Below, piece by piece: positions 2,935-60,116 of a stretch of 64,000 nucleotides of DNA. The position numbers were made by a program, and so were the translations under genes. Each line of letters opens with the position of its first letter. Within the stretch, counting starts at the first letter, position 1. Source of the stretch: Keguizhuia sedimenti (GTDB lineage: Bacteria; Pseudomonadota; Gammaproteobacteria; Burkholderiales; Burkholderiaceae_D); the NCBI GenBank assembly GCA_030715135.1, contig JAUYVH010000009.1, positions 1 to 64,000 on the forward strand, in the 5' to 3' direction. The notes under the pieces are model-generated. The model saw nothing but the letters and a program-made list of their open reading frames with translations. It was not told where the DNA came from and did no database searches.

Positions 2935-4476
2935 TCAGCGACTCGCTGGCCGTGCAGTTCCATCCAGGACGATGGCCACCGGGTTCAAAAGCTGATTGGG
3001 GTCCGGACCTCGCGTTGTTTCCGGAACAATGTAGTTTCGTTGAAGGATTTTGATGAGCCCGCCCCGGGGAACCATTTCCTCTGTGATTTCCTGGCAATCC
3101 GGGAGACCTGTGCAGTCGCGCGCAAAGTAATGGACATAGAATTTGTCGGTATTGGCGACCGTTCCGGAGAACCGGGAAGCGCTTCCCTGCAGATCTTCGT
3201 CAGAAAGGTTCGCGACGCCTTGGAGGACGTCGAACCAATTGACCGAGAGGCTCACATAAGTAGCGTTGCCCGTGGCCGTACCCAGTGTCCCGGCGACCGC
3301 AATTACTTCGCCATTATCGACGTTTACTGTTGGACTGATCTGATAGTCGGAGTCTTGAGTATCGCCCAGGCAGTTCATGGGACGGGGAAGGCAATGTTGC
3401 CCGATGAGGTCTACGAAAAGTTGCAGACTTTGCGACTGTCCGGTAGAGGCGGATGGTTGCCCCCACTCTTGCTTGACCGCTGCCACCAGGGCGGTGAGGT
3501 CGCTTTCAAGCCCGAGTTCAGAGCGAGCAGTCTTAGGATCGTAGGCCGGAGTCGGCCAAGGCTCGGTTGCACTGGCATTCTTGTTCCTGACCCGCAGCAC
3601 CGCGAGCGGGATCTGCTGGCGCCATTGCTCGCCGGCCTCCTTATCTAATGGTTGCGCGTAGCGAATGAGGGTCATGAAATCATCCGCCTCGGCGCCGAGT
3701 CCGACCCGGGCGACTTCCGGCGACACAGGTTCGGTAAACACCTGATTAGGATCGGAAACGCGCGCACGCACGAGCGCCTCGGTCATCTCGCGCGCCATGG
3801 CAGCGTCGGTTGAGATGACAAAGGAGCGCCGCTGGCCGAAAGCGGCACCTGCCTGGCGCTCAATGACGACGTTGTTGTTGCTGTTGCCGAGGCTCGAGAA
3901 CATCAGCACGCGGGAGGGATCCGGTGCCTCAGAGAAGAGTATTTCATTTATTTTTGGATCAGACAGAGTGCGCTGGAAAACGGGATCAGTCGGGTCGATA
4001 GCATCTTCACGTGTGAAGACATACGTCTGCAGCCCGAAATACTTGCCGGGTGGGGGAAGCAGCCCGAAAATGAGCAGGGCTTCACGCTTGTCAAAGCGGA
4101 AGGTTGCCGATGCATTATCCGGTAACGGTCCTAGCAGATTCCTCATGGATTCATCCACGAACTCATCCGGCCACAAGGGCACTGCGGAAATGATATACGG
4201 CGCCGCCGGGTTGTTTCCGAAGCAGTTACCGACCACCGGGATAGGATATTTGCAGTCCTCGATGGTGAACAGCTTGAACGAGCCGCGGGCGACTTCGTAT
4301 CCCCCGGCCTCGAGCTCGGCCTGGAGGCGGTCGGCTTGTTGCCCGACACTTCCCGTAGTAGGCTGGTTATTCTCGGTAGGGGGCTGGTTACCGTTGTCGT
4401 CGCCATCGCCGCCGCCGCCGTTGCATGCCGATATGAACATCATGGCGAGTACAAACCAAATCGTGCGGAATTTCAT
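2935..4476 (-). CDS. Large lipoprotein of unknown function
   Basis: About 513 residues starting at the second of two tandem ATGs, with GGAGGA immediately upstream. The signal peptide ends in the lipobox ISAC, so the mature protein starts at Cys18. A low-complexity Gly/Asp/Asn/Gln linker follows (GGGGDGDDNGNQPPTENN). The rest looks globular and soluble, with few Cys, and has no catalytic motif I recognise. It is probably co-transcribed with the secreted Cys-rich protein downstream, so the pair may work together at the cell surface or in the periplasm; that is inference from context only. Confidence 0.72.
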   Translation of the reverse strand: MKFRTIWFVLAMMFISACNGGGGDGDDNGNQPPTENNQPTTGSVGQQADRLQAELEAGGYEVARGSFKLFTIEDCKYPIPVVGNCFGNNPAAPYIISAVPLWPDEFVDESMRNLLGPLPDNASATFRFDKREALLIFGLLPPPGKYFGLQTYVFTREDAIDPTDPVFQRTLSDPKINEILFSEAPDPSRVLMFSSLGNSNNNVVIERQAGAAFGQRRSFVISTDAAMAREMTEALVRARVSDPNQVFTEPVSPEVARVGLGAEADDFMTLIRYAQPLDKEAGEQWRQQIPLAVLRVRNKNASATEPWPTPAYDPKTARSELGLESDLTALVAAVKQEWGQPSASTGQSQSLQLFVDLIGQHCLPRPMNCLGDTQDSDYQISPTVNVDNGEVIAVAGTLGTATGNATYVSLSVNWFDVLQGVANLSDEDLQGSASRFSGTVANTDKFYVHYFARDCTGLPDCQEITEEMVPRGGLIKILQRNYIVPETTRGPDPNQLLNPVAIVLDGTARPASR

Positions 4477-4479
4477 CAT

Positions 4480-5571
4480 TCCTCCGGATCGACCTTAACG
4501 GTCATGCCTGGCATACCAGCGTAATACCAGTTTGCTGAAAAACACGAAACAGCTTTGCTGTTCAGTGACGGGCGAGTCAATAAGATCAATTTAGGTTGAA
4601 ACCGGAGACGCGCCTGGTTATGTCATATCACTTTGAATTAGATCAAGGTGGAGGTGGATCGATGTAGCGACCGAACAGGACGCCAGGCAGGTCCTGGCGC
4701 GATGAAATCCCTTTAGGAAAGCGCCGCGTCGAGATTTGCCATATCAGGATGTTCCAGTTTAGCGATCCCGTTATGCCTAAGAGCCTATTCCGGTAGGCCG
4801 GGTTAGTCGCGGCGGAGGCGAGTTGCGTTCGGAACAAGGGTGTAGCAGGGGTTTCGCGAGGCATGCTTCGCGCCTGCGCAACGGCAATGGCTTGCAAGCC
4901 CATTGCCCGCCCTGCAAGGGTGGCGACGCGCAATAGCGAGCTATTGCAAGGAGTCGCAACGCCGTGCCGGATGCAAATCGTCCCGCCACGGCAAGCTGGC
5001 CTACCGGGATAGGCTGCTAAATAGCAAAGGCATGAAAATGGACAAGTAAATGCAATGAAGTCGATACCGGAAGAACGGACAGAACTGGAGAATTTACTGA
5101 ATCGCTGATGGTTTTGTGGACAGTAGCTCACCTGGAAGCTTGAACGGGCACATGCCTTGCTCAAATGGATTACGGATCATGCGGGCAGGAATGGGCCGAT
5201 GAAGGGATTGCCGAAGTGTGTGGCATAACTGCGTCCGCGCACGAATTGTCTAAGCAAGCCATGGAGAAACAAGCCATAGGGAAAAATCCCAGGTTGTTAT
5301 TCGCGCATAAGCGATTTGAACCACAACCGATTTCATTCAAACTGACATCAGGTTGGGGCTGCCAATAAGCTGCGTGTAGTGACATGACAGGCAAATCTAT
5401 GCTGAAAGATTTCAAATTGCTGCCGGAAGCAACTACCCGTTACCAAGGCAGAAGCTAAGCTCAGAAACAATAAGTTCTTGTCTTTATATGTATGCTCTCG
5501 GGCCTGTTTATGGCGCAGGCCATAAATGCCCATGCTTTAGCAGCCGGGCATCAACAAGAGTGGCTATCCGC
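4480..5571. other. Gene-poor region holding a structured repeat
   Basis: More than 1 kb without a credible gene. Its main content is the inverted-end element at 4782-5015. Open frames here (4643-5164 minus, 5170-5415 minus) run through repeat sequence or lack ribosome-binding sites. A short hairpin near 5505-5531 (TTTATGG / CCATAAA) could be a weak terminator for the small minus-strand gene ending at 5572. Confidence 0.55.
4782..5015. repeat. 234-bp MITE-like element with 18-bp terminal inverted repeats
   Basis: The left end AGCCTATTCCGGTAGGCC (4782-4799) matches the reverse complement of the right end (4998-5015) at 17 of 18 positions. The interior has further hairpins, notably GGCAATGGCTTG / CAAGCCCATTGCC near 4880-4905 and GCAATAGC / GCTATTGC near 4930-4948. 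No transposase is encoded. A clear target duplication is not visible, although CTAA occurs near both ends. It could be a non-autonomous mobile element or a large REP-type palindromic unit. Confidence 0.6.
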
Positions 5572-5829
5572 TCAGGAATCCTCATGATCTCTTGCCGAGC
5601 GCTGCATGATATCGCTGACATTCTGACGGGCATTGAACTGGTCGAGTCCTGTTTTATACAATGCTCCGCCGAGGCGCACGAGTGCGTCGAAATTTTCTTT
5701 CGACAGCTTGCCTCGCGACTCGGATAGGAGCAAGGACAATTCCTGGATCAGATCGTTTTGCGTAGGCGCTTGCTTTTGCATATCGGCAGCTTGTTGCCGA
5801 AACAGCTCAAGTACTTCGTCTGGGGTCAT
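5572..5829 (-). CDS. Small hypothetical protein
   Basis: About 85 residues from the ATG at 5829; a TTG at 5904 would add 25 residues. The sequence is mainly helical and charged (PDEVLELFRQQAADMQKQAP and LLLSESRGKLSKENFDALVR). It has no signal peptide or membrane segment, so it is probably cytoplasmic. The regular amphipathic pattern makes chance unlikely, but the ribosome-binding site is weak. Family unknown. Confidence 0.5.
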   Translation of the reverse strand: MTPDEVLELFRQQAADMQKQAPTQNDLIQELSLLLSESRGKLSKENFDALVRLGGALYKTGLDQFNARQNVSDIMQRSARDHEDS

Positions 5830-6032
5830 CTTGGGCTCACAGGCGTCATGGCAGCATTGGATTATGGTTTGAATAAAGTCGACTTTAGCCGAAGACTTTA
5901 ACAATACGGAATTGGCACCAATCTATTTGGCGCCAATTCATACAGCTACCGATCCGCAAAGATGAAATAAAGGTGAAATAAAGAGCGGCGATTTACTGTC
6001 AGAGATGAACAGCTTGCCTGTGCATCTTCATG

Positions 6033-6311
6033 CTAGGGCGAAGGCGCATTGCCGACCAGCGAATTTGCATTTAACCGAAGCGGAGTTCCTTGCACTCCGG
6101 CTGCTATGAGACGGCGTGCGATGCCGTTGATTTTGGCTTCGTACGCGCGGAATATCTTCATGCTGTCGATTTCTGATCCTTCTGCATTTCCGAGTACGGA
6201 CAGTTTTTTCAATGCATCTTCGGTAATCAGGCATTCGTGGTTGACGTAATCCACGCTCACCGTGAAGGCGATGCCTTCAGATGTGACGTGAGGCTGGGAA
6301 AGTACATTCAT
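6033..6311 (-). CDS. DUF1488-like small protein
   Basis: About 92 residues, starting at the ATG at 6311 with AAGGA six bases upstream (a TTG two codons earlier is less likely). The pattern of a hydrophobic beta strand with VNHECLITEDALKKL, then FRAYEAKINGIARRLIAAG, resembles the DUF1488 family of short proteins of unknown function. It is probably cytoplasmic and stands alone between gene-poor regions. The family call is from memory of the motif pattern and is moderate. Confidence 0.6.
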   Translation of the reverse strand: MNVLSQPHVTSEGIAFTVSVDYVNHECLITEDALKKLSVLGNAEGSEIDSMKIFRAYEAKINGIARRLIAAGVQGTPLRLNANSLVGNAPSP

Positions 6312-6741
6312 ATCCAATCCTTATGGAAATAATTCCATTAATGAAAATTTAGTGTGCCGGAAATGACGGTGTGGAAATCACAAGCGCACAATTGTTGCTG
6401 ATTAATGATGTTATTAGACAGATCCAAGGAGCAATGTGTCGCACTGAAGGTGGATTGGCCTTAAAAATAAGCAGTAACCACTATATAGACAATTGAGAAC
6501 TTATCAAGTTCCGTCTGGTAATTATTTATCTTTGCGCAATGCCAATGCTTTTAATGTGCCGTCACGCAAGTTGTAATCAGAAATACAGGCGCGTCTCCGG
6601 CTTTTTCTTTCGCAAGCGCCTAATCGCAACATGGAAAATTACGTATATACAGCTGTGACAGGACAAGGTTTCAAGGACCGACATATTGTTTGCAGGTAAT
6701 TTTGCAGGCCTATCCGAATTTCGGGACAACTTGGATCGAGG
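6312..6741. other. AT-rich intergenic region
   Basis: About 430 bp with no credible gene. It is more AT-rich than its surroundings and probably carries the promoter of the DUF1488-like gene near its left end. A minus-strand open frame at 6577-6864 is antisense to the start of the nitrilase remnant and has no support. Confidence 0.45.
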
Positions 6742-7186
6742 CTGCATATTCCATCGTTTAAAAAATTTGCGGCCGTACAGATGAAGAGTGAATTCACCGA
6801 AGTAACGCGCAACCTCAGTCAGGCCGCCGTCTTTATCGAGCAGGCGGTACAGTGCGGCGCACAAGTAATCCTGCTTCCCGAATTCATGTCCAGCGGGTAT
6901 GCCGCAACAGAAGAAATCTGGAAATATGGCGAATTCCTCTCAGGGCCATCGGTTGCATGGTTGCTGAGTACCGCAAAACGCCATCGCATTTATCTCGCTC
7001 CACTTTCGTGGAATCGGGCGGGCTGGATTTTTATAATACCTTCGTTCTTTCCGGTCCTAACGGGACGCTTCTTGGCCAGGTCCGGAAGAATCCGCCCTGT
7101 TCGACAGAATCGTATTATTTCAAGGCCGGTTCGGACGAGCATTTCATCGACACCGATCTGGGGCGCATCGGTATCGGCATCTGCTA

Positions 7187-46160: not shown

Positions 46161-46988
46161 TCATCTCGTCATCCAGCGGCGCAGCAGGAAACTGACCGCA
46201 TCCACCAGCGCGACCAGAAGCAGCATGGCGATGATGACGGAAGCGGCCTGCTGCATCTGGAACAGCGACAGATGATATTTCAGCATTTGTCCCAGCCCGC
46301 CGGCGCCGACCACGCCCAGTATGGCAGCGGCGCGGATATTGTTTTCCCAGCGATACAGCGTGTAAGACATGATCTGCGGCAGAACCTGGGGCAGGGTGGC
46401 ATAGAAAAAGGCTACGGTCGGGCGCACGCCGTTGATGCGCAGGGTGCTTTCCGGCAGCGGCGAGGCATTCTCCAGCGCATCGGCAAACAGGCGGCCAAGC
46501 ACGCCTGCTGTATGGACTGCCAATGCCAGCGTGCCGCCGAACGGCCCCAGGCCGGCAGCGATCAACAGGATTGCAGCCCACACCAGTTCCGGTATCGAGC
46601 GCAGGACATTCAGGACCATGCGGGTACCCAGGCGCGCAATACGGCCGAACCTCCCGCCCGCAGGCAGCGCCAGCACAATGCCGGCGAGCGCGGCGATGCC
46701 GGTGCCGAGCGCGGACATGGACAAGGTCTCTGCGGCGCTGAAAGCGATTTTTTCAAGAAATGCCGGCGCTGTCTCCGGCGGCGCAAAGCCGCGCAGGAAT
46801 TCAATGCTGGTGCGCGCTGCATCGGCGGTAAAGAATTCGCTCCATTTCAGCGGCAGCGATGCAAAGCTCGCCGCCACTAGGGCAATCAGGCACAAGAGCA
46901 GGATGAGGCCCGAGCGGCTGATTACCGGCTGCGCAGGCGGAAGCATTGCCGGGATGGATCGAGCGGCCTGAGCGTGCTTTTCCATCAT
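46161..46988 (-). CDS. PhnE-type ABC transporter permease, second copy
   Basis: 275 residues with about six transmembrane helices. The conserved permease loop is AATILGVVGAGGLGQMLKYH-like (ILGVVGAGGLGQMLKYHLSL), typical of PhnE, the inner-membrane channel of phosphonate/phosphite-type importers. It overlaps the preceding permease gene by four bases. Two adjacent permease genes usually form a heterodimer. Context (binding protein of the putative selenate group, sen genes downstream) suggests a selenium oxyanion rather than a phosphonate as substrate; that is inference. Confidence 0.85.
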   Translation of the reverse strand: MMEKHAQAARSIPAMLPPAQPVISRSGLILLLCLIALVAASFASLPLKWSEFFTADAARTSIEFLRGFAPPETAPAFLEKIAFSAAETLSMSALGTGIAALAGIVLALPAGGRFGRIARLGTRMVLNVLRSIPELVWAAILLIAAGLGPFGGTLALAVHTAGVLGRLFADALENASPLPESTLRINGVRPTVAFFYATLPQVLPQIMSYTLYRWENNIRAAAILGVVGAGGLGQMLKYHLSLFQMQQAASVIIAMLLLVALVDAVSFLLRRWMTR

Positions 46989-47827
46989 CCCAGCCGTCCG
47001 CGCAAAAGCTTGCTCACTCCGTCGGCCGCGGCAACCAATGCAATGAATACCATCAGCATCGTGGCGACTTCGCCGCCGGCAAGCATTTTCATCGATTCAT
47101 CCATTCTTTGTCCCAGTCCGCCGGCGCCGACGAATCCCATGATGACGGAGCCGCGGATTGCGCATTCCCAGCGATACACGGTATAGGACACCAGTTCCGA
47201 TGCCGCTTCCGGCAATGCGCCGTAGAACAGGGCTGCCAGGCGTCCGCTGCCGTTCTTCAGCAGTGCATCGGTCGCGTGGGGGTCGGAGGATTCGAGAATT
47301 TCCGCATACACCTTGCCCAGCATGCCGCAATAGGTCAGGGCAATCGCCAATACGCCGGCGGTCGGGCCAAGCCCGACAATGCGTACAAAAAGCAATGCCC
47401 ATACCAGTTCGGGAACACTGCGCAGGAGAATGAGCAGCCAGCGCACGCCCTGGCGGACGAACATGGGAAGGAGCGTCATCCCGCGCATGCCGATGCGCGA
47501 AATCGACAGATGTTCGGTCGCCAGCAAGGTCAGCGGAATGGCGCCGAGCAAGGCCAATGCCATGCCGGCCGTGGCCATGGCAACGGTTTGCCAGGTCGCT
47601 TCAGCCACCAGCAGCAGGAAATCGCCTGAATGCGCAGGCGGGAAAAAGTCCGCAAGAAAGCGCCAGGCCGCCGTCAGACTTTGCCGGTCCAGCAGGCTCC
47701 AGGGCTTGAATTCGCTGGCCACCAGCATCGGCCATAGCAAAACCGCCACAATGACCGCAGCCACTACGCGGGAACGCCATGCCGGATCGTGTTCGGCAGG
47801 CGGGCGGATGGCGTGGGATAGTTGCAT
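46985..47827 (-). CDS. PhnE-type ABC transporter permease, first copy
   Basis: 280 residues, about six transmembrane helices. The loop VIMGFVGAGGLGQRMDESMK is the EAA-like contact with the ATPase, and the middle has RSVPELVWALLFVRIVGLGP, which is nearly repeated in the second copy (RSIPELVWAAILLIAAGLGP). The two permeases therefore come from a duplication. It starts 18 bases after the ATPase gene and overlaps the second permease (ATGA). Confidence 0.85.
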   Translation of the reverse strand: MQLSHAIRPPAEHDPAWRSRVVAAVIVAVLLWPMLVASEFKPWSLLDRQSLTAAWRFLADFFPPAHSGDFLLLVAEATWQTVAMATAGMALALLGAIPLTLLATEHLSISRIGMRGMTLLPMFVRQGVRWLLILLRSVPELVWALLFVRIVGLGPTAGVLAIALTYCGMLGKVYAEILESSDPHATDALLKNGSGRLAALFYGALPEAASELVSYTVYRWECAIRGSVIMGFVGAGGLGQRMDESMKMLAGGEVATMLMVFIALVAAADGVSKLLRGRLG

Positions 47828-47845
47828 GGTCCGGACTGCGGCCGA

Positions 47846-48688
47846 TCAGAAACAGCGCGGAAGGACCGCAGCAGGGGAGGCGATATCGCTGGGGAAACCA
47901 GGCTGAGCGGCCTGTGGCGCAGCAGCTATATCTTCACGCGCATTGCGGTACAGGGCTGCAATCATCTCGTCCGTTACTTTCTCGCGGCGCTCATCGAAAA
48001 CGATCCGTCCGTCGCGCAATCCGACGATGCGCGGGAAGTGGGCGCGTGCCAGTTCAACCTGATGCAGGCTGCAGATCAGTGTGGCCTTGCGCGCTGCCGC
48101 TTCCTGCTGCAGGATCGCTAGGGTTTGCCGCGCCAGCGTCGGGTCGAGCGCGGATAGCGGTTCATCGACCAGCATGGCTTGCGCATTCGATACCAGCAGG
48201 CGCGCCATGCCGCAGCGCTGGCGTTCACCGCCCGACAGCCGGTCAACGCGCGCATAGAGTTTATCTTCCAGATTGAAGCGCGCCAGCGCGTCGAACGCTG
48301 CCTGCGGATCGATGGGCTTGACCAGGGATTTCAGCGCTTGCCACACGCTCCACTGCGGCAGCCGTCCGGCCAGCACAGCGGTGACGACCCGCTGGCGCGG
48401 CGGCATGGGCGGCGTTTGCGGTGCCAGGAAAAACCGCGCACGCATGGCATGCCTTTGCCTGCTGTTAAGCGCCCATGGCTGATCGCCGAAGGCGGTGAAC
48501 GTCCCTCTTTCAGGCCGCAGCGCACAGGCCATTGTGTGCAGCAGACTGGTCTTGCCTGCGCCGGACGGCCCGATCAGGGCAAGCTGTTCTCCCTGCGCAA
48601 TCGACAACGTGATATCCGTCAGGGTGCGCCGGGCGGCGGATGCCGCTGAAGGATGGCGCACCGAGACGGATTGCAATGTAAAACTCAT
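47846..48688 (-). CDS. PhnC-type ABC transporter ATPase
   Basis: 280 residues with Walker A GPSGAGKTSLLHTMACAL, signature LSGGERQRCGMARLLV, Walker B AMLVDEPLSALDP and switch-region His in CSLHQVELAR. The sequence is PhnC-like but lacks some usual spacing in the first half (an APQTPPMPPRQRVVTAVLAG Q-loop region). Its ATG overlaps the stop of the binding-protein gene (TAATG), so the two are translationally coupled. It energises the paired permeases. Confidence 0.87.
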   Translation of the reverse strand: MSFTLQSVSVRHPSAASAARRTLTDITLSIAQGEQLALIGPSGAGKTSLLHTMACALRPERGTFTAFGDQPWALNSRQRHAMRARFFLAPQTPPMPPRQRVVTAVLAGRLPQWSVWQALKSLVKPIDPQAAFDALARFNLEDKLYARVDRLSGGERQRCGMARLLVSNAQAMLVDEPLSALDPTLARQTLAILQQEAAARKATLICSLHQVELARAHFPRIVGLRDGRIVFDERREKVTDEMIAALYRNAREDIAAAPQAAQPGFPSDIASPAAVLPRCF

Positions 48689-49581
48689 TATTTAGGAAGG
48701 CCCGTTTGTGAACCTGTCAGTAATCCCGCACTCTTGGCCGCTGCTTCGATGGCGGCATAGTTTTCCGCTCTGGTCGGAATGAAGCGTGTCGCACGTTGCA
48801 ATTCCAGGATTTCCTTGCCTTGCGGATCGTTCCTGTTCAAGGCCAGAAACGCGTCGGCGATTTTCTTGCGCAGCACCGGGTTCATATCGGCGCGCACGGT
48901 CCAGTTGTAGTCGTAATAGCCGGGCGTGGTGTAGAACACGCGCACGGCATTAGTATCGACCTTGCCTTGCGATACCAGCTTTTCCCATACCGAGATATTC
49001 AGCGCGCCGGCATCGACTTTGCCGCCTGACACCGCCGCCACGGTCGCGTCATGCGCACCGGAGAATGCGACGCGCTTCATGTCGGTATCAGGATTGATCC
49101 GGGCAGAAAGCAGGAAGGAGCGCGGCATCAGGTGGCCCGACGTGGAGGATTCGGACCCAAAACTGAAGGTCTTGCCTTTCAGGTCTTCCAGCTTGTTGAT
49201 TGCCTTGTCGGTCGTGATGAACACCGACCTGAACTTCTCGTCTTCTTCGCGCTGCACCAGCGGGATCACCTTGTTTCCGCTGCGCGCCTTGGCCTGCACG
49301 AAAGTGAAGCCGCCGAACCATACCATGTCCAGCTTATTGTTGATTAGCCCTTCGACCGAAGCGGCGTAGTCGGTTACCGGCGTGAACTCCACTTTCATCC
49401 CGAGTTTTTGTCCGAGGTAATCGCCGAGCGGCTTGAATTTCCGCTGCAGTTCGGTAGGCGCCTCGTCCGGAATTGCGGACACGCGCAGCACCTGCTGGGC
49501 ATAGGCCGAGCCGGAAACCAATAATGCAAAAGTGCATGCAACAAGGGAAAAAGATTTGGTCAAACCGGGAAGTCTCAGCAT
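48688..49581 (-). CDS. PhnD-like substrate-binding protein, putative selenate transporter type
   Basis: About 297 residues from the ATG at 49581, giving a signal peptide (SLVACTFALLVSGSAYA). The mature start LRVSAIPDEAPTELQRKF, then GDYLGQKLGMKVEF, VTDYAASVEGL and DMVWFGGFTFVQA, matches my memory of the family annotated as putative selenate ABC transporter substrate-binding proteins, which was named because it co-occurs with selD. Later motifs SFGSESSTSGHLMPRSFLL are general to the PhnD group. It is the first gene of the D-C-E-E operon and divergent from egtD, sharing a 107-bp control region. The ligand is unproven; phosphonate or phosphite remain alternatives. Confidence 0.8.
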   Translation of the reverse strand: MLRLPGLTKSFSLVACTFALLVSGSAYAQQVLRVSAIPDEAPTELQRKFKPLGDYLGQKLGMKVEFTPVTDYAASVEGLINNKLDMVWFGGFTFVQAKARSGNKVIPLVQREEDEKFRSVFITTDKAINKLEDLKGKTFSFGSESSTSGHLMPRSFLLSARINPDTDMKRVAFSGAHDATVAAVSGGKVDAGALNISVWEKLVSQGKVDTNAVRVFYTTPGYYDYNWTVRADMNPVLRKKIADAFLALNRNDPQGKEILELQRATRFIPTRAENYAAIEAAAKSAGLLTGSQTGLPK

Positions 49582-49688
49582 GGCGCTCAGTAACTCAAAA
49601 TAAAGTGGGGAAATCAGGGAAATCGGGATCGCGCGTGCAATATCAGCAGCCTTGTGAGCGCTCAACCGGGCAAGAAATTTAATAGGCT

Positions 49689-50756
49689 ATGATACCAAAT
49701 CAGCTTGATCTTCCGCTGGACGGACGGAAAGCTCAATCCATTGAAGGAAGGAATCCACAGGCCATGGTGACCGCTCCCATCCAGGCATCCGAACGCGAAG
49801 ATGCCGTACTGACATCTCAAGGCAGTTTGCCTGCCATTGAAGCCGAGCTGAACGCCGGTTTATCCACGCTCCAGGCTACGGTTTCACCGAAATATCTCTA
49901 CGACGCACTGGGATCTCGACTTTTTACGGCAATCTGTGAACTGCAGGAGTATTACCCGACTCGTACGGAGGCAGCGGTCTTTAATGCATGCAGCGATGAA
50001 ATAGCCGCTTCTGTCGGCCGCGGCATGACGCTGATCGACCTGGGTGCGGGTGACTGCAGCAAGGCGGAGCGATTGTTTTCCTCTTTTCAACCCAGGCAAT
50101 ATGTTGCGGTCGATATTTCGGAAGATTTCCTTAAGGAATCCCTGGGGCGTTTGCGCGAGCGCTTCAAGAGGACTGACATGCTGGGATTGAGCATGGATTT
50201 TTCCAGAACGTTGGAATTGCCCGATTCGGTCCATTGCAACAAACGCCTGTTTTTTTATCCCGGCTCGTCCATCGGGAATTTTTCCCCGAGGGAAGCGACT
50301 GCTTTCCTGCAACGCTTGCGCAAGGCATGCGAATGCGGAGGTCGTTCCGAGGGCGGCTTGCTGATAGGCGTGGACCTGGTCAAGGACGAAGCCATACTCA
50401 ATGCCGCCTATGACGACGAGTTGGGCGTCACTGCAGCGTTCAACCTGAACCTGCTGCGCCACTTGAACCGGTTGCTGGGTGCGGATTTCCGAACAGAGGA
50501 CTGGAAGCACAAGGCATTTTTCAATGCGCAGGAAAGCCGGATTGAAATGCATCTTGTCGCGCAGTCCAATGTCACGGTGCGCTGGCGAAGCGGCCGGAGG
50601 AGATTCGAGAAGGGCGAATCCATCCATACCGAAAACAGCTATAAATATACGCAGAAGGGATTTCTTTCCCTCCTGGAACAGGCCGGGTTTGGCAATGCGC
50701 GCATCTGGACCGACCCGCAAAAGTGGTTCATGGTCTGTCATGCGGATGCAGTATGA
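49689..50756 (+). CDS. egtD: L-histidine N-alpha-methyltransferase EgtD
   Basis: 355 residues. EgtD trimethylates histidine with S-adenosylmethionine to hercynine, the precursor of ergothioneine and selenoneine. Family motifs are SPKYLYDALGSRLFTAICEL with QEYYPTRTEAAVF, the SAM-binding LIDLGAGDCSKAERLF, FFYPGSSIGNFSPREA and GVDLVKDEAILNAAYDD. About 40 extra residues stand at the N-terminus compared with the core family. The stop is 72 bases before the egtB start, so the two are probably co-transcribed, and the promoter is shared with the divergent selenium-type transporter. Confidence 0.95.
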   Translation: MIPNQLDLPLDGRKAQSIEGRNPQAMVTAPIQASEREDAVLTSQGSLPAIEAELNAGLSTLQATVSPKYLYDALGSRLFTAICELQEYYPTRTEAAVFNACSDEIAASVGRGMTLIDLGAGDCSKAERLFSSFQPRQYVAVDISEDFLKESLGRLRERFKRTDMLGLSMDFSRTLELPDSVHCNKRLFFYPGSSIGNFSPREATAFLQRLRKACECGGRSEGGLLIGVDLVKDEAILNAAYDDELGVTAAFNLNLLRHLNRLLGADFRTEDWKHKAFFNAQESRIEMHLVAQSNVTVRWRSGRRRFEKGESIHTENSYKYTQKGFLSLLEQAGFGNARIWTDPQKWFMVCHADAV

Positions 50757-50828
50757 GATTCGAAGCGGTATGTTCTCCGTTACATGGCCAGTTCCCGAAG
50801 AAAAAGCCCTGGGCTAAGGAACAGCAAA

Positions 50829-52112
50829 ATGAAATCAAGGAATGCAGAACTGCAGTCGGCCGCGAGAATGCCGCTGGTAGAAAAATTCAATGAGGTGCGC
50901 CGTTACTCTGTCAGGCTTGCGGAGCCGCTTTCGGCGGAAGACTGCGGCGCGCAGTCCATGCCGGACGCGAGTCCGGTCAAATGGCATCTGGCGCACACCA
51001 CCTGGTTCTTCGAAACTTTTATCCTGGAGAAGCTCGAACCGGGCTTTCGGCCGTTCCAGCCGGCGTTTCGCATGCTCTTCAATTCCTATTACAACGGCGT
51101 TGGCGAAAAGCATGTCCGCGCGCATCGCGGCCTCCTGACGCGGCCATCGCTCAGTGAAGTCCTGGATTACCGGCGGGATGTCGATGCCCGCATAAGCCGT
51201 CTGCTCGCCCAGTCCGACCGCTCGGCTTCCGATGAGATTTGCCGACTGGTAACGCTTGGCTTGCATCATGAGCAGCAGCATCAGGAATTGTTGCTGACCG
51301 ATGTGAAACACCTGTTCTGGATGAATCCGCTCAAGCCGGCGATGCTGGACACCGCGTTTCCCGGCGCGGGCGAAGAAATGCCTTTGCGCTGGAAAGCTTT
51401 CGATGCAGGCATCGCCGAGATCGGCGCTCGCGGTGAAGGTTTTTGCTTCGATAACGAAACGCCGCGCCATCGCCGGTTTTTGGAAGCGTTTGAAGTGGCT
51501 TCGCGGCTTGTCACCAATGCCGAATATTTGCGCTTCATGGAGGAGGGCGGCTATCAGGACCCCTCGCTCTGGCTGTCGGAAGGCTGGGACTGGTTATGCG
51601 CAAACCGCCTGACGCATCCGCTGTACTGGCAAGCGCCAGCGAACGATGGTCAGCCATGGCGCGAATTCAGCTTGTATGGCATGCAGGAACTCGATCTGCA
51701 CAGGCCGGTGACGCACCTGTCGTTTTTCGAAGCGGATGCGTATGCACGCTGGGCGGATGCGCGCCTACCTACGGAAGCGGAATGGGAGCATGCTGCGGAA
51801 TTTTCCCGCGGCAGCCGCGATACCGGTGCTTCGCCATTTCATCCGTCTGGCATGTTGGACGACGGCGACGAACTTGCGCAGATGTTTGGTTCATGCTGGC
51901 AATGGACTTCCAGCAGCTATGCAGCCTATCCGGGATATGCGCCGGCGGCAGGAGCCATCGGCGAGTACAACGGCAAATTCATGGTCAACCAGTATGTCCT
52001 GCGCGGTTCTTCCTGCGCGACTCCCCCGAGCCACTCAAGGACAAGCTATCGAAATTTTTTTCCATCGAACGCACGCTGGCAATTCAGCGGCATCCGCCTG
52101 GCCCGCTCCTGA
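50829..52112 (+). CDS. egtB: Ergothioneine biosynthesis sulfoxide synthase EgtB
   Basis: About 427 residues from the ATG at 50829 with AAGGA eight bases upstream. EgtB is a non-haem iron enzyme that joins hercynine to a thiol (cysteine or gamma-glutamylcysteine) with oxygen. The DinB-like N-terminal domain carries H56 in WHLAHTTWFFETF and the iron motif HHEQQHQELL (H147, H151, E153 in this numbering). The C-terminal formylglycine-enzyme-like domain shows RLPTEAEWEHAAEF, WQWTSSSYAAYPGY and VLRGSSCATP. No egtA, egtC or egtE is in the window, so thiol donor and C-S lyase are encoded elsewhere or replaced. Confidence 0.94.
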   Translation: MKSRNAELQSAARMPLVEKFNEVRRYSVRLAEPLSAEDCGAQSMPDASPVKWHLAHTTWFFETFILEKLEPGFRPFQPAFRMLFNSYYNGVGEKHVRAHRGLLTRPSLSEVLDYRRDVDARISRLLAQSDRSASDEICRLVTLGLHHEQQHQELLLTDVKHLFWMNPLKPAMLDTAFPGAGEEMPLRWKAFDAGIAEIGARGEGFCFDNETPRHRRFLEAFEVASRLVTNAEYLRFMEEGGYQDPSLWLSEGWDWLCANRLTHPLYWQAPANDGQPWREFSLYGMQELDLHRPVTHLSFFEADAYARWADARLPTEAEWEHAAEFSRGSRDTGASPFHPSGMLDDGDELAQMFGSCWQWTSSSYAAYPGYAPAAGAIGEYNGKFMVNQYVLRGSSCATPPSHSRTSYRNFFPSNARWQFSGIRLARS

Positions 52113-54699: not shown

Positions 54700-54984
54700 T
54701 TATGTATGCTTGCTGGACAATCTTGCACTCATATATAAAGAATACAAAGCGGATAGACCGACGGCAACATAGATCACGCGCGAAAGAGCGCTCCCTTCAC
54801 CGAACAGGGTCGCGACCAGGTCGAGGTCAAACAGTCCGACCAATCCCCAGTTCAGTCCGCCGATAATCAAAAGTAACATTGGTATCCATTCTGCTGCGGT
54901 CATTCGTTTTTTATGGACAGTGCTCTTTGAGCGTCTGTCAGCAAGATGACGTCTTTCGGTCATCGGTGAATCCATTGTAGCCAT
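54700..54984 (-). CDS. DUF378 small membrane protein
   Basis: 94 residues from the ATG at 54984 with AAGGAG upstream; an in-frame start at 55077 lacks one. The N-terminal 35 residues are basic and hydrophilic. The two helices carry the DUF378 pattern IGGLNWGLVGLFDLDLVATL and SRVIYVAVGLSALYSL. Function is unknown; members are small inner-membrane proteins, often stress-linked. Confidence 0.85.
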   Translation of the reverse strand: MATMDSPMTERRHLADRRSKSTVHKKRMTAAEWIPMLLLIIGGLNWGLVGLFDLDLVATLFGEGSALSRVIYVAVGLSALYSLYMSARLSSKHT

Positions 54985-55272
54985 GATCTGCTCCTTAAAA
55001 GTGATATTGTTTTCCGGAATGCCTTTCGGAATGCCGGAGTGCCGTTGGGATGCAAACTCTGTGCCGGTATTGCGCATTGAGGCCTGAAAACCGGAATGCG
55101 AGAAAAGTCCGCCTTCCGCGATCTAGCTGTCAAAGCGGGTGCGGATGCGCTATAGCGAACGTATTACCGGACTTGAAACAGGATTTGCAAAATGGCGGGG
55201 CCTTGAGCGCGCACAATATGCTTAAAATCTGGTCCAAGCGAGTAAGGTTTCAATGGTGAACTGGAGAATATG

Positions 55273-55641
55273 ATGCATTACAAGAACCTCAGCCTCGTCG
55301 CATTGTTGTTTACATCGCTGTTCGCATTGCTTTTAAGTGCCAGCGCATTTGGTCATCATGGATGGAGCGAATACGATGCAAACCAACCGCTGCAATTGAG
55401 CGGCACGATCATGGAATCCGGCTATTCCCATCCGCACGGACACATCAGCCTCAAGACGGAAGGCAAGACCTGGAATGTTGTGCTGGCGCCGCCGACACGA
55501 ATGGAAAACAGGGGGCTGAGTAAGGAAATGCTCAGCCCTGGCAAAAAGGCGACGGTAGTTGGCTACCCGAATCGCAACAAGCCGGAAGAAATGCGCGCTG
55601 AGCGCATCACCATTGACGAAAAGACGACGGAACTGCGCTGA
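55273..55641 (+). CDS. DUF6152-like periplasmic protein
   Basis: 122 residues from the second of two tandem ATGs, six bases after GGAG. A Sec signal (VALLFTSLFALLLSASAFG) precedes HHGWSEYDANQPLQLSGTI, the start typical of DUF6152 proteins, then a small beta-rich domain with PPTRMENRGL and GYPNRNKPEEMRAERI. The two His after the signal could bind metal, but that is speculation. Its TGA overlaps the start of the next gene, so the pair is co-translated. Confidence 0.78.
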   Translation: MHYKNLSLVALLFTSLFALLLSASAFGHHGWSEYDANQPLQLSGTIMESGYSHPHGHISLKTEGKTWNVVLAPPTRMENRGLSKEMLSPGKKATVVGYPNRNKPEEMRAERITIDEKTTELR

Positions 55642-56129
55642 TGCAAGGGACAGCGGGATATTTTGGCTGGCTGGAGGCAAGCGCCTTATCCCGCGCAATG
55701 CGCGAGAGCCTGTGGATGTATCCGATCGTCGAGATCGTGCATATCATCGGCTTCGTCCTGCTGGTGGGATCCGTCGCGATGTTCGATTTTCGTATCCTCG
55801 GGCTGTCGAAAGGATTGTCGGTGCAGCGCATGGGACGCCATCTTTTGCGCTGGTCGGTCGCCAGCCTCTTGCTGATCGTGCCTGCAGGGCTCCTGATGTT
55901 TTCTGCCCATCCGCAGGATTTCATCGGCAACAGGATTTTCCTGATCAAGATGCTGCTCATCGTGTCGGCTGCCATCAATGCAGCCATGTTTCATTTGGGA
56001 ACGTACCGCAGAGTCGAGCAGTGGGATACCCAGGTTCCCGCGCCATTTTCTGCAAAGCTGCATGCCGGCTTATCGCTTCTGATATGGGTTTCCGTCATCA
56101 GTTGCGGTCGCTTGCTTGCCTATACTTGA
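55641..56129 (+). CDS. DUF6644-like membrane protein
   Basis: 162 residues with four predicted transmembrane helices (IVEIVHIIGFVLLVGSVAMF; LLRWSVASLLLIVPAGLLMF; NRIFLIKMLLIVSAAINAAM; KLHAGLSLLIWVSVISCGRL). His and Arg residues inside helices (VHIIG) recall small cytochrome b-like or copper-linked membrane proteins, and such genes often pair with DUF6152 genes. The start overlaps the DUF6152 stop (TGATG). Function unknown. Confidence 0.75.
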   Translation: MQGTAGYFGWLEASALSRAMRESLWMYPIVEIVHIIGFVLLVGSVAMFDFRILGLSKGLSVQRMGRHLLRWSVASLLLIVPAGLLMFSAHPQDFIGNRIFLIKMLLIVSAAINAAMFHLGTYRRVEQWDTQVPAPFSAKLHAGLSLLIWVSVISCGRLLAYT

Positions 56130-56141
56130 ACATTTCGCGAG

Positions 56142-56744
56142 ATGAACATGCGTACGCTGGGTATATTCCTGTACCGGTATCGGTTGCTTCAACTGGCAAT
56201 GCTGTTCTTTGCCGGTGTGCCGCACGTCTTTGCCGCTGATCAGGAAGCCATATGGAAATCCCTGCAGTCAGGCGGTCATGTAGTCCTGATCCGGCATGCA
56301 ATCACCGAATCAGGGGTAGGAGACCCGCCGGGATTCAGGCTGGAAGATTGCAGCACCCAGCGCAATCTGTCCGCGCAAGGACGCGCGGATGCAAAACGTA
56401 TCGGAGACGCATTCAGCAAGCGCGGCATTCCGATTGCAGCGGTTCTGTCGAGCCGCTGGTGCCGCTGCCTTGATACCGCGAAGATTGCATTTGGCAGGGC
56501 AACCCCATCCCCGATGCTGAATTCAATATTCAACGACCGGGAAAAGCCAAAGGAGGAAAAGATCCGGGAATTTCGAGAGGCCGTTGCGACCATGCCGGCA
56601 GACGGCAACGTCATCATGGTCACGCACCAGTACAACATCCAGGCGTTTGCCGATGTGTCGCCCACGTCCGGCGAAATGGTTGTTTTGAAGCCTGAATCGG
56701 GCAAGCTCCGGCTGGTCGGGCGCTTGACGGTGCCCGACCTGTAA
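56142..56744 (+). CDS. Secreted histidine phosphatase-superfamily protein
   Basis: 200 residues with a signal or anchor sequence (LLQLAMLFFAGVPHVFA). The phosphoglycerate-mutase-like core has the catalytic RHG-type motif as VVLIRHAITESG, the second Arg in LSSRWCRCLDTAK and the second His in IMVTHQYNIQAF. It probably removes phosphate from a periplasmic substrate; the exact one is unknown. It is the last gene of the run from 55273 and converges on selD with only 7 bases between stops. Confidence 0.88.
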   Translation: MNMRTLGIFLYRYRLLQLAMLFFAGVPHVFAADQEAIWKSLQSGGHVVLIRHAITESGVGDPPGFRLEDCSTQRNLSAQGRADAKRIGDAFSKRGIPIAAVLSSRWCRCLDTAKIAFGRATPSPMLNSIFNDREKPKEEKIREFREAVATMPADGNVIMVTHQYNIQAFADVSPTSGEMVVLKPESGKLRLVGRLTVPDL

Positions 56745-56751
56745 CGGCAGC

Positions 56752-57810
56752 TTAGGCTGCGACTTCAACGCCGGCCGGGCCGGCCTGCATTTCCCCGATC
56801 ACGGCCGCATGCGGGAAGCCTCCACGCCTGAAGACGGCAAGCACTTCGTCCACCGATTCCGGCGCGCAGGAAACCAGCAAGCCGCCGGAGGTTTGCGGGT
56901 CGGTCAGGAGCGCCTGCTGCGTTGCCGTGACGGCATCGGAAAATTTGACTTCATGGCCGTAGCCGGCCCAGTTGCGGCCCGAGGCTCCGGTGATATAGCC
57001 CTGCGAAGCAAGGTCGAGCACGCCGTGTAATAGCGGAATCTTTGCCATGTCAAGCTTGGCGGCAAGTTTCGCGCCGCGTGCCAATTCCAGCAGGTGTCCT
57101 AGCAGGCCGAAGCCGGTCACATCGGTCAGCGCATGCACGCCGGCCAGTTCCGAAAGCGCCTTGCCGGGCTTGTTGAGCTTGGTGGTGCTGGCAATCATCG
57201 CCTCGTAGCCCGCGGTGTCGAGCGCATTCTTTTTCAGCGCCGCCGACAACACGCCTACGCCCAGCGGCTTGCCGAGGATGAGCTTGTCGCCCGCTTTGGC
57301 GTCCGCGTTGCGTTTCACTCTGGACGGATGCACCAGGCCCATCACGACCAGGCCGTAGATCGGCTCGACCGAATCGATGGTATGGCCGCCGGCAATCGGA
57401 ATTCCGGCTTCGGCGCATACCGTTTCGCCGCCCTGTATGATCTTGCCGATGACATCCAGCGGCAATTTGTCGATCGGCATGCCGACCAGCGCCAGCGCCA
57501 TGATCGGCGTGCCGCCCATTGCATACACGTCCGAAATTGCGTTGGTTGCTGCGATACGCCCGAAGTCGAAGGGGTCGTCCACGATGGGCATGAAAAAATC
57601 CGTGGTCGCAATCAGCGCCTGCTCGTCATTAAGTTTATAGACTGCAGCATCGTCGGCGGTCTCGATGCCGACCATCAGCTCTTTCGGGACAGGAAAGCCG
57701 CTCGATTTTTTCAGGATTTCGGCCAGCACTCCGGGCGCGATCTTGCAGCCGCAGCCACCGCCGTGCGAAAAGGAAGTCAGTTTGATCGGGAGTTCAGTCG
57801 GTGCATTCAT
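56752..57810 (-). CDS. selD: Selenophosphate synthase (SelD/SenC)
   Basis: 352 residues. The enzyme makes selenophosphate from selenide and ATP. The catalytic loop SHGGGCGCKIAPGVLAEI has Cys20, Cys22 and Lys23, matching the Cys17/Lys20 of E. coli SelD. The ATP and metal residues are in GIETADDAAVYKL, IATTDFFMPIVDDPFDFGRI and GGHTIDSVEPIYGLVVMG, with TDPQTSGGLLVSC at the C-terminal signature. It is a normal Cys-type SelD, not a selenocysteine one. AAGGAT in the 3' end of senB serves as its ribosome-binding site, with 3 bases between the genes. In this context its product feeds SenB, so it corresponds to SenC. Confidence 0.95.
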   Translation of the reverse strand: MNAPTELPIKLTSFSHGGGCGCKIAPGVLAEILKKSSGFPVPKELMVGIETADDAAVYKLNDEQALIATTDFFMPIVDDPFDFGRIAATNAISDVYAMGGTPIMALALVGMPIDKLPLDVIGKIIQGGETVCAEAGIPIAGGHTIDSVEPIYGLVVMGLVHPSRVKRNADAKAGDKLILGKPLGVGVLSAALKKNALDTAGYEAMIASTTKLNKPGKALSELAGVHALTDVTGFGLLGHLLELARGAKLAAKLDMAKIPLLHGVLDLASQGYITGASGRNWAGYGHEVKFSDAVTATQQALLTDPQTSGGLLVSCAPESVDEVLAVFRRGGFPHAAVIGEMQAGPAGVEVAA

Positions 57811-57813
57811 GAG

Positions 57814-58782
57814 CTAATCCTTAGGTTTGAGTGCATTATCCATCAATTGTAAAAGCGCCGTCTTTTCGCGCTCCACGGAAAAAAGCGGGGCACGCGCCGC
57901 GCACTGTCGCCATAGAAGCAAACGAAATTCCGCATCCGTCGCTGCACGGTCGATCAGGGCAGCCAGGGCCTGGCTGTCGCCCACCGGAAAGTAGCCGGGA
58001 TAATCCTCGCCGAGCATGCCGCGATTGCCGGAAATATTACTGGCCAGGACAGGAACGCCGCTGGTGATTGCTTCCGCAATAACATTTGCCCCGCCTTCCA
58101 TTCTGGAGGCGATAACGGTCAAATCGCTGTGCTTGAGTTTGCGGCGGGTTTCACCGTGCGCAAGGTTGCCGAGCCATTTGTAGCGCGCATGCCGCGCCTG
58201 CAGAAAATGCGCTTCCTGTTCCAGTCCTGTATCCAGTGCGCCTCCGATATGGATGAAGCGCAGCATGGGATAATGGGCGCGTTCGGCTGCACGCATGAAT
58301 GTCAGCGGATCTTTTTCATCGCGGAGATGGCCAATCATGGACACGGTGAAATTCCGTTTATTATTGGCTGGAGCCACGGCCTTTAGCGGCGTGGCGGATT
58401 GATAAATCACGGTGGTTTTTTCGCGCATGGCCGACGGAAGTTCTTCCAGTCCCGCAGCTTGCAGGACGACAAGGCGGCTGGCCAGCCGGAGCGAACGCTG
58501 GGCGTCCGGATCGCTGTGGATATCCCGATACAGGTCGGTGCCGGTCAGCACCACAATCAGCGGCTTTGCGGGGAAAGCCTGTGAAAATGCGGCAATCGCG
58601 GGGGCCGAACGGCGTGCATGCAGGGCGATCATGGCATCGGCAGGCAGCGCGATCTCTCCGGATGAAATGGAGACACGGTATGCCGGTTGCAGAAAACGTT
58701 TCCAGCGCAACGCGGTACGCCAATTTCCGTTGTTGGCTTTTGCCGATGCCGGGCTGATAATGATGATATGTCGCTTGCTCAA
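57814..58782 (-). CDS. senB: Selenosugar synthase SenB (GT4-like glycosyltransferase)
   Basis: About 322 residues. In the characterised selenoneine pathway SenB couples selenophosphate with a UDP-sugar to make a 1-selenosugar. The N-terminus KRHIIIISPASAKANNGNWR carries the selenoneine-type start, and the C-terminal half has the GT4 pattern HLRDEKDPLTFMRAAERAHY, RMEGGANVIAEAITSGVPVL and SNISGNRGMLGEDYPGYF (the E-x7-E motif). The only start is TTG at 58782 with a weak binding site. It is transcribed as one unit with selD and is divergent from senA. A glycosyltransferase beside selD and an EgtB-like gene has no better explanation. Confidence 0.9.
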   Translation of the reverse strand: MSKRHIIIISPASAKANNGNWRTALRWKRFLQPAYRVSISSGEIALPADAMIALHARRSAPAIAAFSQAFPAKPLIVVLTGTDLYRDIHSDPDAQRSLRLASRLVVLQAAGLEELPSAMREKTTVIYQSATPLKAVAPANNKRNFTVSMIGHLRDEKDPLTFMRAAERAHYPMLRFIHIGGALDTGLEQEAHFLQARHARYKWLGNLAHGETRRKLKHSDLTVIASRMEGGANVIAEAITSGVPVLASNISGNRGMLGEDYPGYFPVGDSQALAALIDRAATDAEFRLLLWRQCAARAPLFSVEREKTALLQLMDNALKPKD

Positions 58783-58817
58783 GAACTGCGCTTTAAGATG
58801 AAAAGTTCAAATCGCCG

Positions 58818-60005
58818 ATGAATGCTTCTTTTCGGAACGCACAACCGCATGAACTGGCCGGTGCGCTACAGGATGCGCGAGATTATACGCTGGCCCTGTT
58901 CGATTGCTTCGCAGCGGCGGAGCTTGACCAGGTGCATAACGTTCCGATACTCGCCATTGTCAATCCGCCGCTTTGGGAGCTTGGACATATCGCCTGGTTT
59001 GCCGAATGGTACATCCTGCGCGAAGCGGAATCCAGCGCGCCGGACGCGGCAAAATTCCCATGCCTGTTGACCAAGGGCGACGACTGGTTTGATTCCAATA
59101 CCGTGCCGCACCGGGCGCGCTGGAACCTGGATCTGCCGGGAAGCGGGGCGCTCAAGACTTACTGCCGAGAGGTGCTTGACCGGGCTCTCGACAGGCTCAC
59201 CAAGGCAGGTAATGAGGATGTGTCGCTTTATCCCTACCGTCTGGCCCTTGCGCATGAAGACATGCACGGCGAGGCATTTGCGTACACCATGCAGACGCTC
59301 GGCGTAACGCCGCCGCAGGCTTTATCCGGACATCAACCCAAACCCTGGGCACAGGGAGAAATCCGCTTTGCGGGCGGCACCATTGAACTGGGCAGTCAGC
59401 CCGGACGCGGCTTTGTGTTCGATAATGAAAAATGGGCTCATGCCTTGTATGTACCGCCGTTCTTGATGGACTCCACCCTGGTGACGAACGAACAGTTCAC
59501 CGATTTTGTCGAGGATGGCGGCTATCAGGATTTGCAATGGTGGACGGGGGCGGGACGTGCCTGGCTGAGGCAGCATGAAAAAAATGCGCCGAAGAACTGG
59601 TATCGGGATGGCAAGAACTGGTTCTGCGTGCGTTTCGGCCGGCGCCTGATGCTGCAGCCGCGCGAACCGGTGCGGCATGTGAGCTTGTTTGAAGCCCAGG
59701 CCTATTGCATGTGGGCCGGGCGCAGGCTTCCGACCGAAGCGGAGTGGGAATTTGCCTGCATGTCGGGACATCCGGCTTTGCGCTGGGGTGACTTGTGGGA
59801 ATGGACGTGTTCGCCGTTTGAACCATATCCCGGCTTTTCGCCGGATGCATACCGTGAATATTCGCAGCCGTGGTTTTCGACCCATCAGGCATTGCGCGGC
59901 GCATCATTCGCGACGAAAGCACGCATGCGTTCGCCCAAATTCAGGAATTTCTATCTGCCGGAACGCAATGACATTTTTGTCGGGTTCCGCACCTGCGCCT
60001 TGTAA
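58818..60005 (+). CDS. senA: Selenoneine synthase SenA (EgtB-like)
   Basis: 395 residues. SenA is a non-haem iron enzyme, related to EgtB, that forms the carbon-selenium bond between hercynine and a selenosugar. The DinB-like domain has H57 in WELGHIAWFAEWYIL and the iron motif AHEDMHGEAFAYT (H146, H150, E152). The C-terminal formylglycine-enzyme-like domain has RRLPTEAEWEFACMSG and LWEWTCSPFEPYPGFSPD. It differs strongly from the EgtB at 50829 (about 427 residues) and groups with SenA by its place beside senB and selD. It is divergent from senB with only 35 bases between the two starts. Confidence 0.9.
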   Translation: MNASFRNAQPHELAGALQDARDYTLALFDCFAAAELDQVHNVPILAIVNPPLWELGHIAWFAEWYILREAESSAPDAAKFPCLLTKGDDWFDSNTVPHRARWNLDLPGSGALKTYCREVLDRALDRLTKAGNEDVSLYPYRLALAHEDMHGEAFAYTMQTLGVTPPQALSGHQPKPWAQGEIRFAGGTIELGSQPGRGFVFDNEKWAHALYVPPFLMDSTLVTNEQFTDFVEDGGYQDLQWWTGAGRAWLRQHEKNAPKNWYRDGKNWFCVRFGRRLMLQPREPVRHVSLFEAQAYCMWAGRRLPTEAEWEFACMSGHPALRWGDLWEWTCSPFEPYPGFSPDAYREYSQPWFSTHQALRGASFATKARMRSPKFRNFYLPERNDIFVGFRTCAL

Positions 60006-60043: not shown

Positions 60044-60077
60044 AAAAAAAGCCGCTCCAGGAAAACTGAAGCGGCTT
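60044..60077 (-). terminator. Rho-independent terminator of the DEAD-box gene
   Basis: AAGCCGCT (60049-60056) pairs with AGCGGCTT (60070-60077), and the minus strand continues with TTTTT. A competing stem GGAGCGG / CCGCTCC (60033-60058) overlaps it and could serve senA on the plus strand. Confidence 0.85.
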
Positions 60078-60116
60078 CAAAACTGAAGATTAATTACTGA
60101 TTAATCTCTGGCCTGA

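Follow-up and report, generated by a model that had tools for sequence, protein, structure and literature searches.

Sequence evidence for a probable selenoneine gene cluster in Keguizhuia sedimenti and for related SenA proteins that lack active-site residues where SenB is missing

The stretch examined here, referred to below as the window, comprises 64,000 nucleotides of Keguizhuia sedimenti DNA (contig JAUYVH010000009.1) from a genome assembly of 4.05 Mb in 45 contigs that is 100% complete. Its positions 56752-60005 carry three intact open reading frames (ORFs) that make up a complete sen cluster. On the minus strand lie selD (senC), at 56752-57810, for a predicted selenide, water dikinase of 352 aa that would turn selenide and ATP into selenophosphate, and senB, at 57814-58782, which begins with a TTG codon and encodes a predicted selenosugar synthase of 322 aa, a GT-B Se-glycosyltransferase. 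The third gene, senA, at 58818-60005 on the plus strand, encodes a predicted selenoneine synthase (395 aa), an iron-dependent selenoxide synthase. A first-pass annotation had placed here selD, a glycosyltransferase gene 3 bases upstream of it and a divergent second EgtB-like gene, and the ORF coordinates agree with that description. Since only 3 bases (57811-57813) separate the senB stop from the selD start, a single operon with coupled translation is suggested, and since the divergent senB/senA intergenic region is only 35 bases long (58783-58817), a senA promoter, if there is one, would have to extend into senB. Two genes for hercynine metabolism are found within about 7 kb of the cluster, both on the plus strand: egtD, for the hercynine-making histidine N-alpha-methyltransferase (49689-50756; TIGR03438, 385 bits, cut-off 291), and egtB, for a canonical ergothioneine sulfoxide synthase (50784-52112).

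The product of senA was compared with curated family models and with known structures. The window SenA scored 527.3 bits with the NCBI model NF041186 (cut-off 420) and remained below the cut-off of the EgtB model TIGR03440 (281 bits versus 360). The local EgtB showed the reverse, with 564 bits for the EgtB model and 374 bits, under the cut-off, for the SenA model. The NF041186 cut-off is not a sufficient test of a SenA by itself, because SenAs with a broken active site, described below, also score above it. An AlphaFold model of the window SenA (predicted local distance difference test score, pLDDT, of 92) had as its best fold match in the PDB the SenA of Variovorax paradoxus (8ryz; TMq 0.94, 43% identity), followed by the ovoselenol enzyme OvsA and then by EgtB. 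The iron ligands H57, H146 and H150 and the tyrosine Tyr345 aligned with 8ryz, 4x8b and 8ux5, and the HxxxHxE motif that the first-pass annotation had named is present as H146xxxH150xE152. The counterpart of Tyr345 in the EgtB of M. thermoresistibile (MthEgtB), Tyr377, is described as catalytic in passages of PMC10903977; a one-residue offset in chain numbering presumably applies to this tyrosine. The alignment also showed the Tyr/Asn/Phe set of a hercynine site at Y348, N377 and F378. These are the residues of the OvsA variant in 8ux5, a structure whose title describes an OvsA variant that binds hercynine and has selenoneine-forming activity, while wild-type OvsA has M/Q/A at these positions.

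Two trees of 36 rows with midpoint roots were computed, one without OvsA and the other without the M. thermoresistibile EgtB, because both of these sequences form long branches. Both trees split the 24 SenA rows, V. paradoxus and the window among them, from the EgtB rows, with support values of 100/98 and 100/100. On its long branch, the M. thermoresistibile EgtB joined closer to SenA than did the local EgtBs. A fork without resolved order connected OvsA, the V. paradoxus pair and the remaining SenAs in the second tree. The sequences closest to the window SenA were those of Noviherbaspirillum and Herminiimonas, so the source is probably a betaproteobacterium of the Oxalobacteraceae type. A recent duplication of the local egtB was considered as the origin of senA and rejected, since the two proteins stand apart in the trees and differ in their catalytic tyrosines.

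For the glycosyltransferase, the selenosugar-synthase model TIGR04348 gave 421.2 bits against a cut-off of 300, and the top sequence matches in the PDB were all SenB structures (8jjq, 8fbx, 8jjn and 8k5u). The TTG start of the window senB lines up with Met1 of the V. paradoxus protein. Sections of PMC10891094 attribute the cleavage of the Se-P bond to K158 of SenB and name N20, T23 and E231 as decisive for the choice of donor. In the alignment the window SenB retains all four, as K157, N20, T23 and E229, and the predicted E-x7-E motif is found as E229-x7-E237.

The third protein, SelD, scored 549 bits with PRK00943 and 442 bits with TIGR00476 (cut-off 125). Its sequence SHGGGCGCK contains the Cys20 and Lys23 that had been reported as intact, and all 68 relatives with a usable SelD have the identical sequence there. 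The gene is the only selD above the cut-off in the whole genome, and selU is present as well; it is therefore probably a shared SelD rather than a dedicated SenC. No SelA match was found in the genome, which speaks against the use of selenocysteine; tRNA-Sec, SelB and selenium-dependent hydroxylases were not searched for. As judged from these genes, selenophosphate here most likely serves both selenoneine and the 2-selenouridine of tRNA.

Taken together, the sen cluster very probably encodes a complete and functional selenoneine pathway, and the earlier identification as a selenoneine cluster is supported by the curated models, the PDB sequence matches, the trees, the residues, the SenA fold and, as described below, the intact sites of the SenAs read from SenB-bearing genomes; that the genes are expressed and that K. 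sedimenti produces selenoneine we infer. The two outcomes named beforehand as refuting it, a SenA inside canonical EgtB and a SenB among ordinary lipopolysaccharide glycosyltransferases, were checked and did not occur. By the chemistry given in PMC9814287 and PMC10702425, SelD would supply selenophosphate, and SenB would place the selenium of this compound on the anomeric carbon of a UDP-sugar, cleaving the Se-P bond. SenA, with its non-haem iron and O2, would join the resulting selenosugar to hercynine from the nearby EgtD; the selenoxide would eliminate spontaneously, and reduction would yield selenoneine. The same hercynine pool would also feed ergothioneine synthesis through EgtB. One alternative is that senA encodes another EgtB for ergothioneine, that senB encodes a common glycosyltransferase of polysaccharide synthesis and that the genes are neighbours by accident. 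In its favour are the DinB_2 and FGE-sulfatase architecture common to SenA and EgtB, the 281 bits of the window SenA with the EgtB model and the position of the M. thermoresistibile EgtB. However, the window SenA lies under the EgtB cut-off and over that of SenA, the split from EgtB is fully supported in the trees, SenB passes the cut-off of its own family, and the clustering of senA, senB and selD recurs in relatives. This alternative is highly improbable, and on the model scores and trees we count it as refuted. It is just as improbable that the product is ovoselenol, formed with histidine as the acceptor. OvsA is likewise a selenoxide synthase, ranks next in fold and, in the tree that includes it, cannot be ordered against the two SenA groups, but the hercynine-binding Y348/N377/F378 take the place of M/Q/A in the window protein, its identity in fold alignments is 30-31% to OvsA versus 41-43% to SenA, and egtD lies nearby.

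Two observations weigh against the assignment as a functional selenoneine cluster. A promoter scan gave 3 candidates against 1.4 +/- 1.4 expected, not clearly above chance, and in SenB two sugar-contacting residues of the V. paradoxus enzyme are replaced, V157 by E156 and H235 by N233. The latter change turns the motif EGGAHV, called highly conserved in SenB in PMC10891094, into EGGANV. The first set of relatives had Asn for H235 in 62 of 63 SenBs and Glu for V157 in 63 of 63, so that EGGAHV is not the conserved form in this group; the Glu/Asn pair was found in 63 of 70 SenBs of another set, which shares some members with the first. Because the essential residues are kept, and because H235 mutants are described in the same source as only partly impaired, EGGANV is treated as probable variation of a subtype. 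The replacements bear on another reading, in which the window SenB uses a UDP-sugar other than that of V. paradoxus SenB and the intermediate differs while the end product is the same. H235 contacts C4' of the sugar and V157 its N-acetyl group, which would fit such a change, but the donor-deciding N20, T23 and E231 are kept, characterised SenBs are promiscuous, and Glu at 157 coexists with His at 235 in 4 of the 70 sequences. We regard a different sugar donor as unlikely, if far less so than the two other alternatives.

The SenA active site was then read across relatives in relation to the presence of SenB. A SenA was termed broken when residues of the His triad or Tyr345 were missing, a designation that is judged from the sequence and does not stand for a demonstrated loss of activity; the rule was widened to Tyr345 after two SenAs (L162 and L164) that keep the three His but have Asp or Glu at 345. 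A search of 392 genomes from this family group found a SenA above the cut-off in 194 and a SenB above its own cut-off in 144. SenB lay within 4 kb in 114 of the 150 SenA places listed and elsewhere in the genome in 19, and the genome was SenB-less in 17. The rows read comprised all 36 without an adjacent SenB and 44 of the 114 with one, and the places covered came from 174 of the 194 SenA-bearing genomes (147 in the first listing, 27 later). Within the first 85 rows the triad was HHH in all 68 that were senB-linked, the window and V. paradoxus included, and the site was broken in all 17 senB-less loci, where the triad read HYR, RHL, QYR and similar. Merging both sets and removing assembly overlap reduced 168 rows to 132 distinct SenAs. 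All 105 from SenB-bearing genomes (the window included) had an intact active site, and in all 21 from SenB-less genomes it was broken (19 of 21 by the His triad alone). In one genome scored as SenB-bearing (G389, which carries L139), the SenB is a fragment lying where a contig ends. Six second SenA copies, each accompanied by an intact SenA in its genome, were all broken. The site was also intact in the 15 cases where the genome carries SenB elsewhere, and distance between senB and senA can thus apparently be harmless to the SenA site. The tree requires 6 changes between intact and broken, with reversals possible, and branches with good support make 5 of these necessary. A test of independent pairs gave 5/5 (p = 0.06), too few pairs for significance alone; the association draws its weight from how sharply the counts differ and from the repeated origins. 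Position 93 showed a parallel pattern, with Ser in 105 of 105 working SenAs, while the 27 broken ones all have Ala, Pro or Leu; of the other enzymes, OvsA has Ser, MthEgtB has Ala and the local EgtBs have Gly. Ser93 may be a candidate residue of the selenosugar site.

A later test set consisted of 38 further genomes taken after the rule had been formed, with 28 SenA rows from which duplicates were not removed and which are not on the tree. SenA was broken in 22 of the 24 SenB-less genomes (20 of 24 by the His triad alone). Sixteen of the broken SenAs came from one genus (code g6), where the third His was Cys in 15 of 16 and one triad read RHR; with Cys at this position metal binding could still be possible. 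Four of the 14 SenB-bearing genomes had a SenA, which was intact in all four, one of them being cut short with positions 377-378 unread; its 416 bits fall slightly below the cut-off. The two exceptions were intact SenAs without a detected SenB (L218 and L232), from an assembly of 600 contigs (G356) and one that is 83% complete (G364). SenB may have been lost in fragmented assemblies, or the rule may have exceptions; with these two cases the rule is strong and not absolute. The opposite arrangement was found in ten SenB-bearing genomes of another genus, code g19 (G239, G248, G386, G267, G114, G393, G165, G408, G355 and G399), which had no SenA above the cut-off. Their best matches scored in or below the EgtB range, and those examined, L235 and L236, were EgtB. 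In six SenB stretches from this genus (L179-L182, L192 and L193) senB stood with selD and no senA. SenB can therefore, as far as the gene content tells, occur without SenA, and a selenosugar is perhaps the end product in these genomes.

Broken SenAs were considered as assembly artefacts or pseudogenes, and this was rejected: their ORFs are full length, the ratio of nonsynonymous to synonymous substitution rates (dN/dS) is low, and completeness is 90% or more in each of the 17 SenB-less genomes. Pairwise comparison gave median dN/dS values of 0.13 for ten broken SenAs of Duganella (45 pairs) and 0.12 for six of the Noviherbaspirillum type (15 pairs), with 0.145 and 0.15 for working relatives of the two lineages; in the second lineage the median dS exceeds 1 and the ratio is rough. 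By this measure, purifying selection on the broken SenAs is as strong as on the working ones in the two lineages tested, and they look like conserved pseudoenzymes. The AlphaFold model of one of them (L069) shares the fold and is weaker, with pLDDT 76 and values under 50 for residues 333-378, which may reflect real disorder or just a less diverse alignment. The SelD beside a broken SenA was rejected as evidence for selenoneine, because selU, present in all 18 genomes searched (the 17 SenB-less ones and K. sedimenti), can explain it. EgtB and SelU were above their cut-offs in all 17 SenB-less genomes, and at L156 egtD, egtB and a broken senA follow one another on one strand with about 60 bases between egtB and senA. 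From this full retention of EgtB and this gene row, a role of the broken SenA beside ergothioneine synthesis is a reasonable guess and no more. We consider it possible, with the balance tilted slightly the other way, that SenA also has a non-catalytic function which persists after selenoneine synthesis is gone. The broken forms would then be conserved pseudo-selenoneine synthases that perhaps regulate, or act as partners of, the ergothioneine or selenophosphate genes next to them, and a working SenA of the kind found in the window would serve in both capacities. The two exceptions among 24 did not change this assessment. A literature search found no paper on SenB-less or inactive SenA, the pseudoenzyme link being checked by title, and nothing that links selenoneine to Duganella or the Oxalobacteraceae; this is not proof that such work is unpublished.

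The gene neighbourhood was tabulated for 80 SenA loci from named genomes, several of which stop at contig edges. The fetched stretches contained senB in 63, selD in 70, rhlE in 39, egtD in 29 and egtB in 29 cases, and as senB and selD so often share the senA locus, the grouping of the three genes is not due to chance. In 62 of the senB-bearing loci senB is divergent from senA, with gaps of 12 to 126 bases (median 43.5), and in the other (L071) the two are co-directional. Of the 17 senB-less loci, 11 had selD and 6 had neither gene. Over all sets, a broken SenA beside selD without senB was recorded at L039, L055, L056, L057, L063, L068, L069, L076-L079, L150-L153, L155, L157, L158, L160-L166 and L207-L211, and one with neither gene seen beside it at L011, L012, L015, L020, L029, L059, L147, L149, L154, L156 and L229. 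Several of the latter sit downstream of egtD-egtB, and the genomes of L012, L015, L029, L059, L147 and L149 also hold a SenA with an intact site. Elsewhere a senB-selD pair, often by an rhlE-like gene, lies far from a still-intact senA (L131-L144, L146 with L167-L178, L183 and L184). A further arrangement was seen at L187 (G021), where positions 3995-7020 hold senB together with egtD and a divergent SenA (43% identical, triad intact), so that sen and hercynine genes form one cluster; this stretch of 8.9 kb has no selD.

In the window itself, selD converges with a histidine phosphatase gene (56744/56752), and senA converges with rhlE. Between the latter two lies a stem-loop of 13 pairs with a T tail (60048-60078, minus strand), which would be a terminator of rhlE and perhaps of senA too. 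It is the only stem of more than 6 pairs among the terminator-like sites, whose number (4 seen, 4.7 expected) is not significant. The interval between egtB and selD holds genes for an APC permease and a methyltransferase, an ORF at 54700-55077 and, at 55270-56744 on the plus strand, DUF6152, DUF6644 and histidine-phosphatase-like genes. These were rejected as members of the cluster, as a search of the flanks fetched for the 80 senA loci gave no match to any of them (E <= 1e-10, 40% coverage). On the other side of the egt genes, a gene for a PhnD-type phosphonate-binding protein (48688-49665) starts 23 bases from the divergent egtD and is followed by two ABC permease genes, the whole occupying 46161-49665 on the minus strand.

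The window thus adds a clean candidate selenoneine locus near those of Noviherbaspirillum and Herminiimonas. As a practical rule, selenoneine should not be predicted from a SenA match by itself: 27 distinct SenAs and 22 more from the later set, duplicates kept, score above the NCBI cut-off without the active-site residues, and NF041186 labels them "selenoneine synthase". The purpose of keeping a seemingly dead selenoneine synthase is a testable question that these genomes raise.

The selenoneine pathway and its enzymes are already known from work of 2022-2024 (PMC9814287, PMC10702425 and PMC10891094). The sen cluster of V. paradoxus DSM 30034 (SenA, 8ryz and 8k5i; SenB, 8fbx and 8jjq; SenC) has the same three genes as the window, and its SenA and SenB have the catalytic residues found in the window enzymes. 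The two SenAs are 43% identical in the structural alignment; the SenBs share 152 of 315 aligned residues and differ at positions 157 and 235. The sen clusters of Oxalobacteraceae (Noviherbaspirillum, Herminiimonas, Massilia and Duganella) show the divergent senA / senB-selD layout of the window in 62 relatives, but several members of the family, unlike the window, have no senB and a SenA with a broken active site. The OvsA of Halomonas utahensis, which forms ovoselenol, is like SenA a selenoxide synthase of the same fold with Ser at the position of S93, and the wild-type enzyme differs in having M/Q/A where the window SenA has Y/N/F. The local EgtB, which is type II-like, shares its Pfam domains and three His with the window SenA, but it lacks the Tyr345 of SenA and has Tyr102-Tyr103 in place of W90-F91, a pair that we take to be the Tyr93-Tyr94 of C. 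thermophilum EgtB described in PMC10903977.

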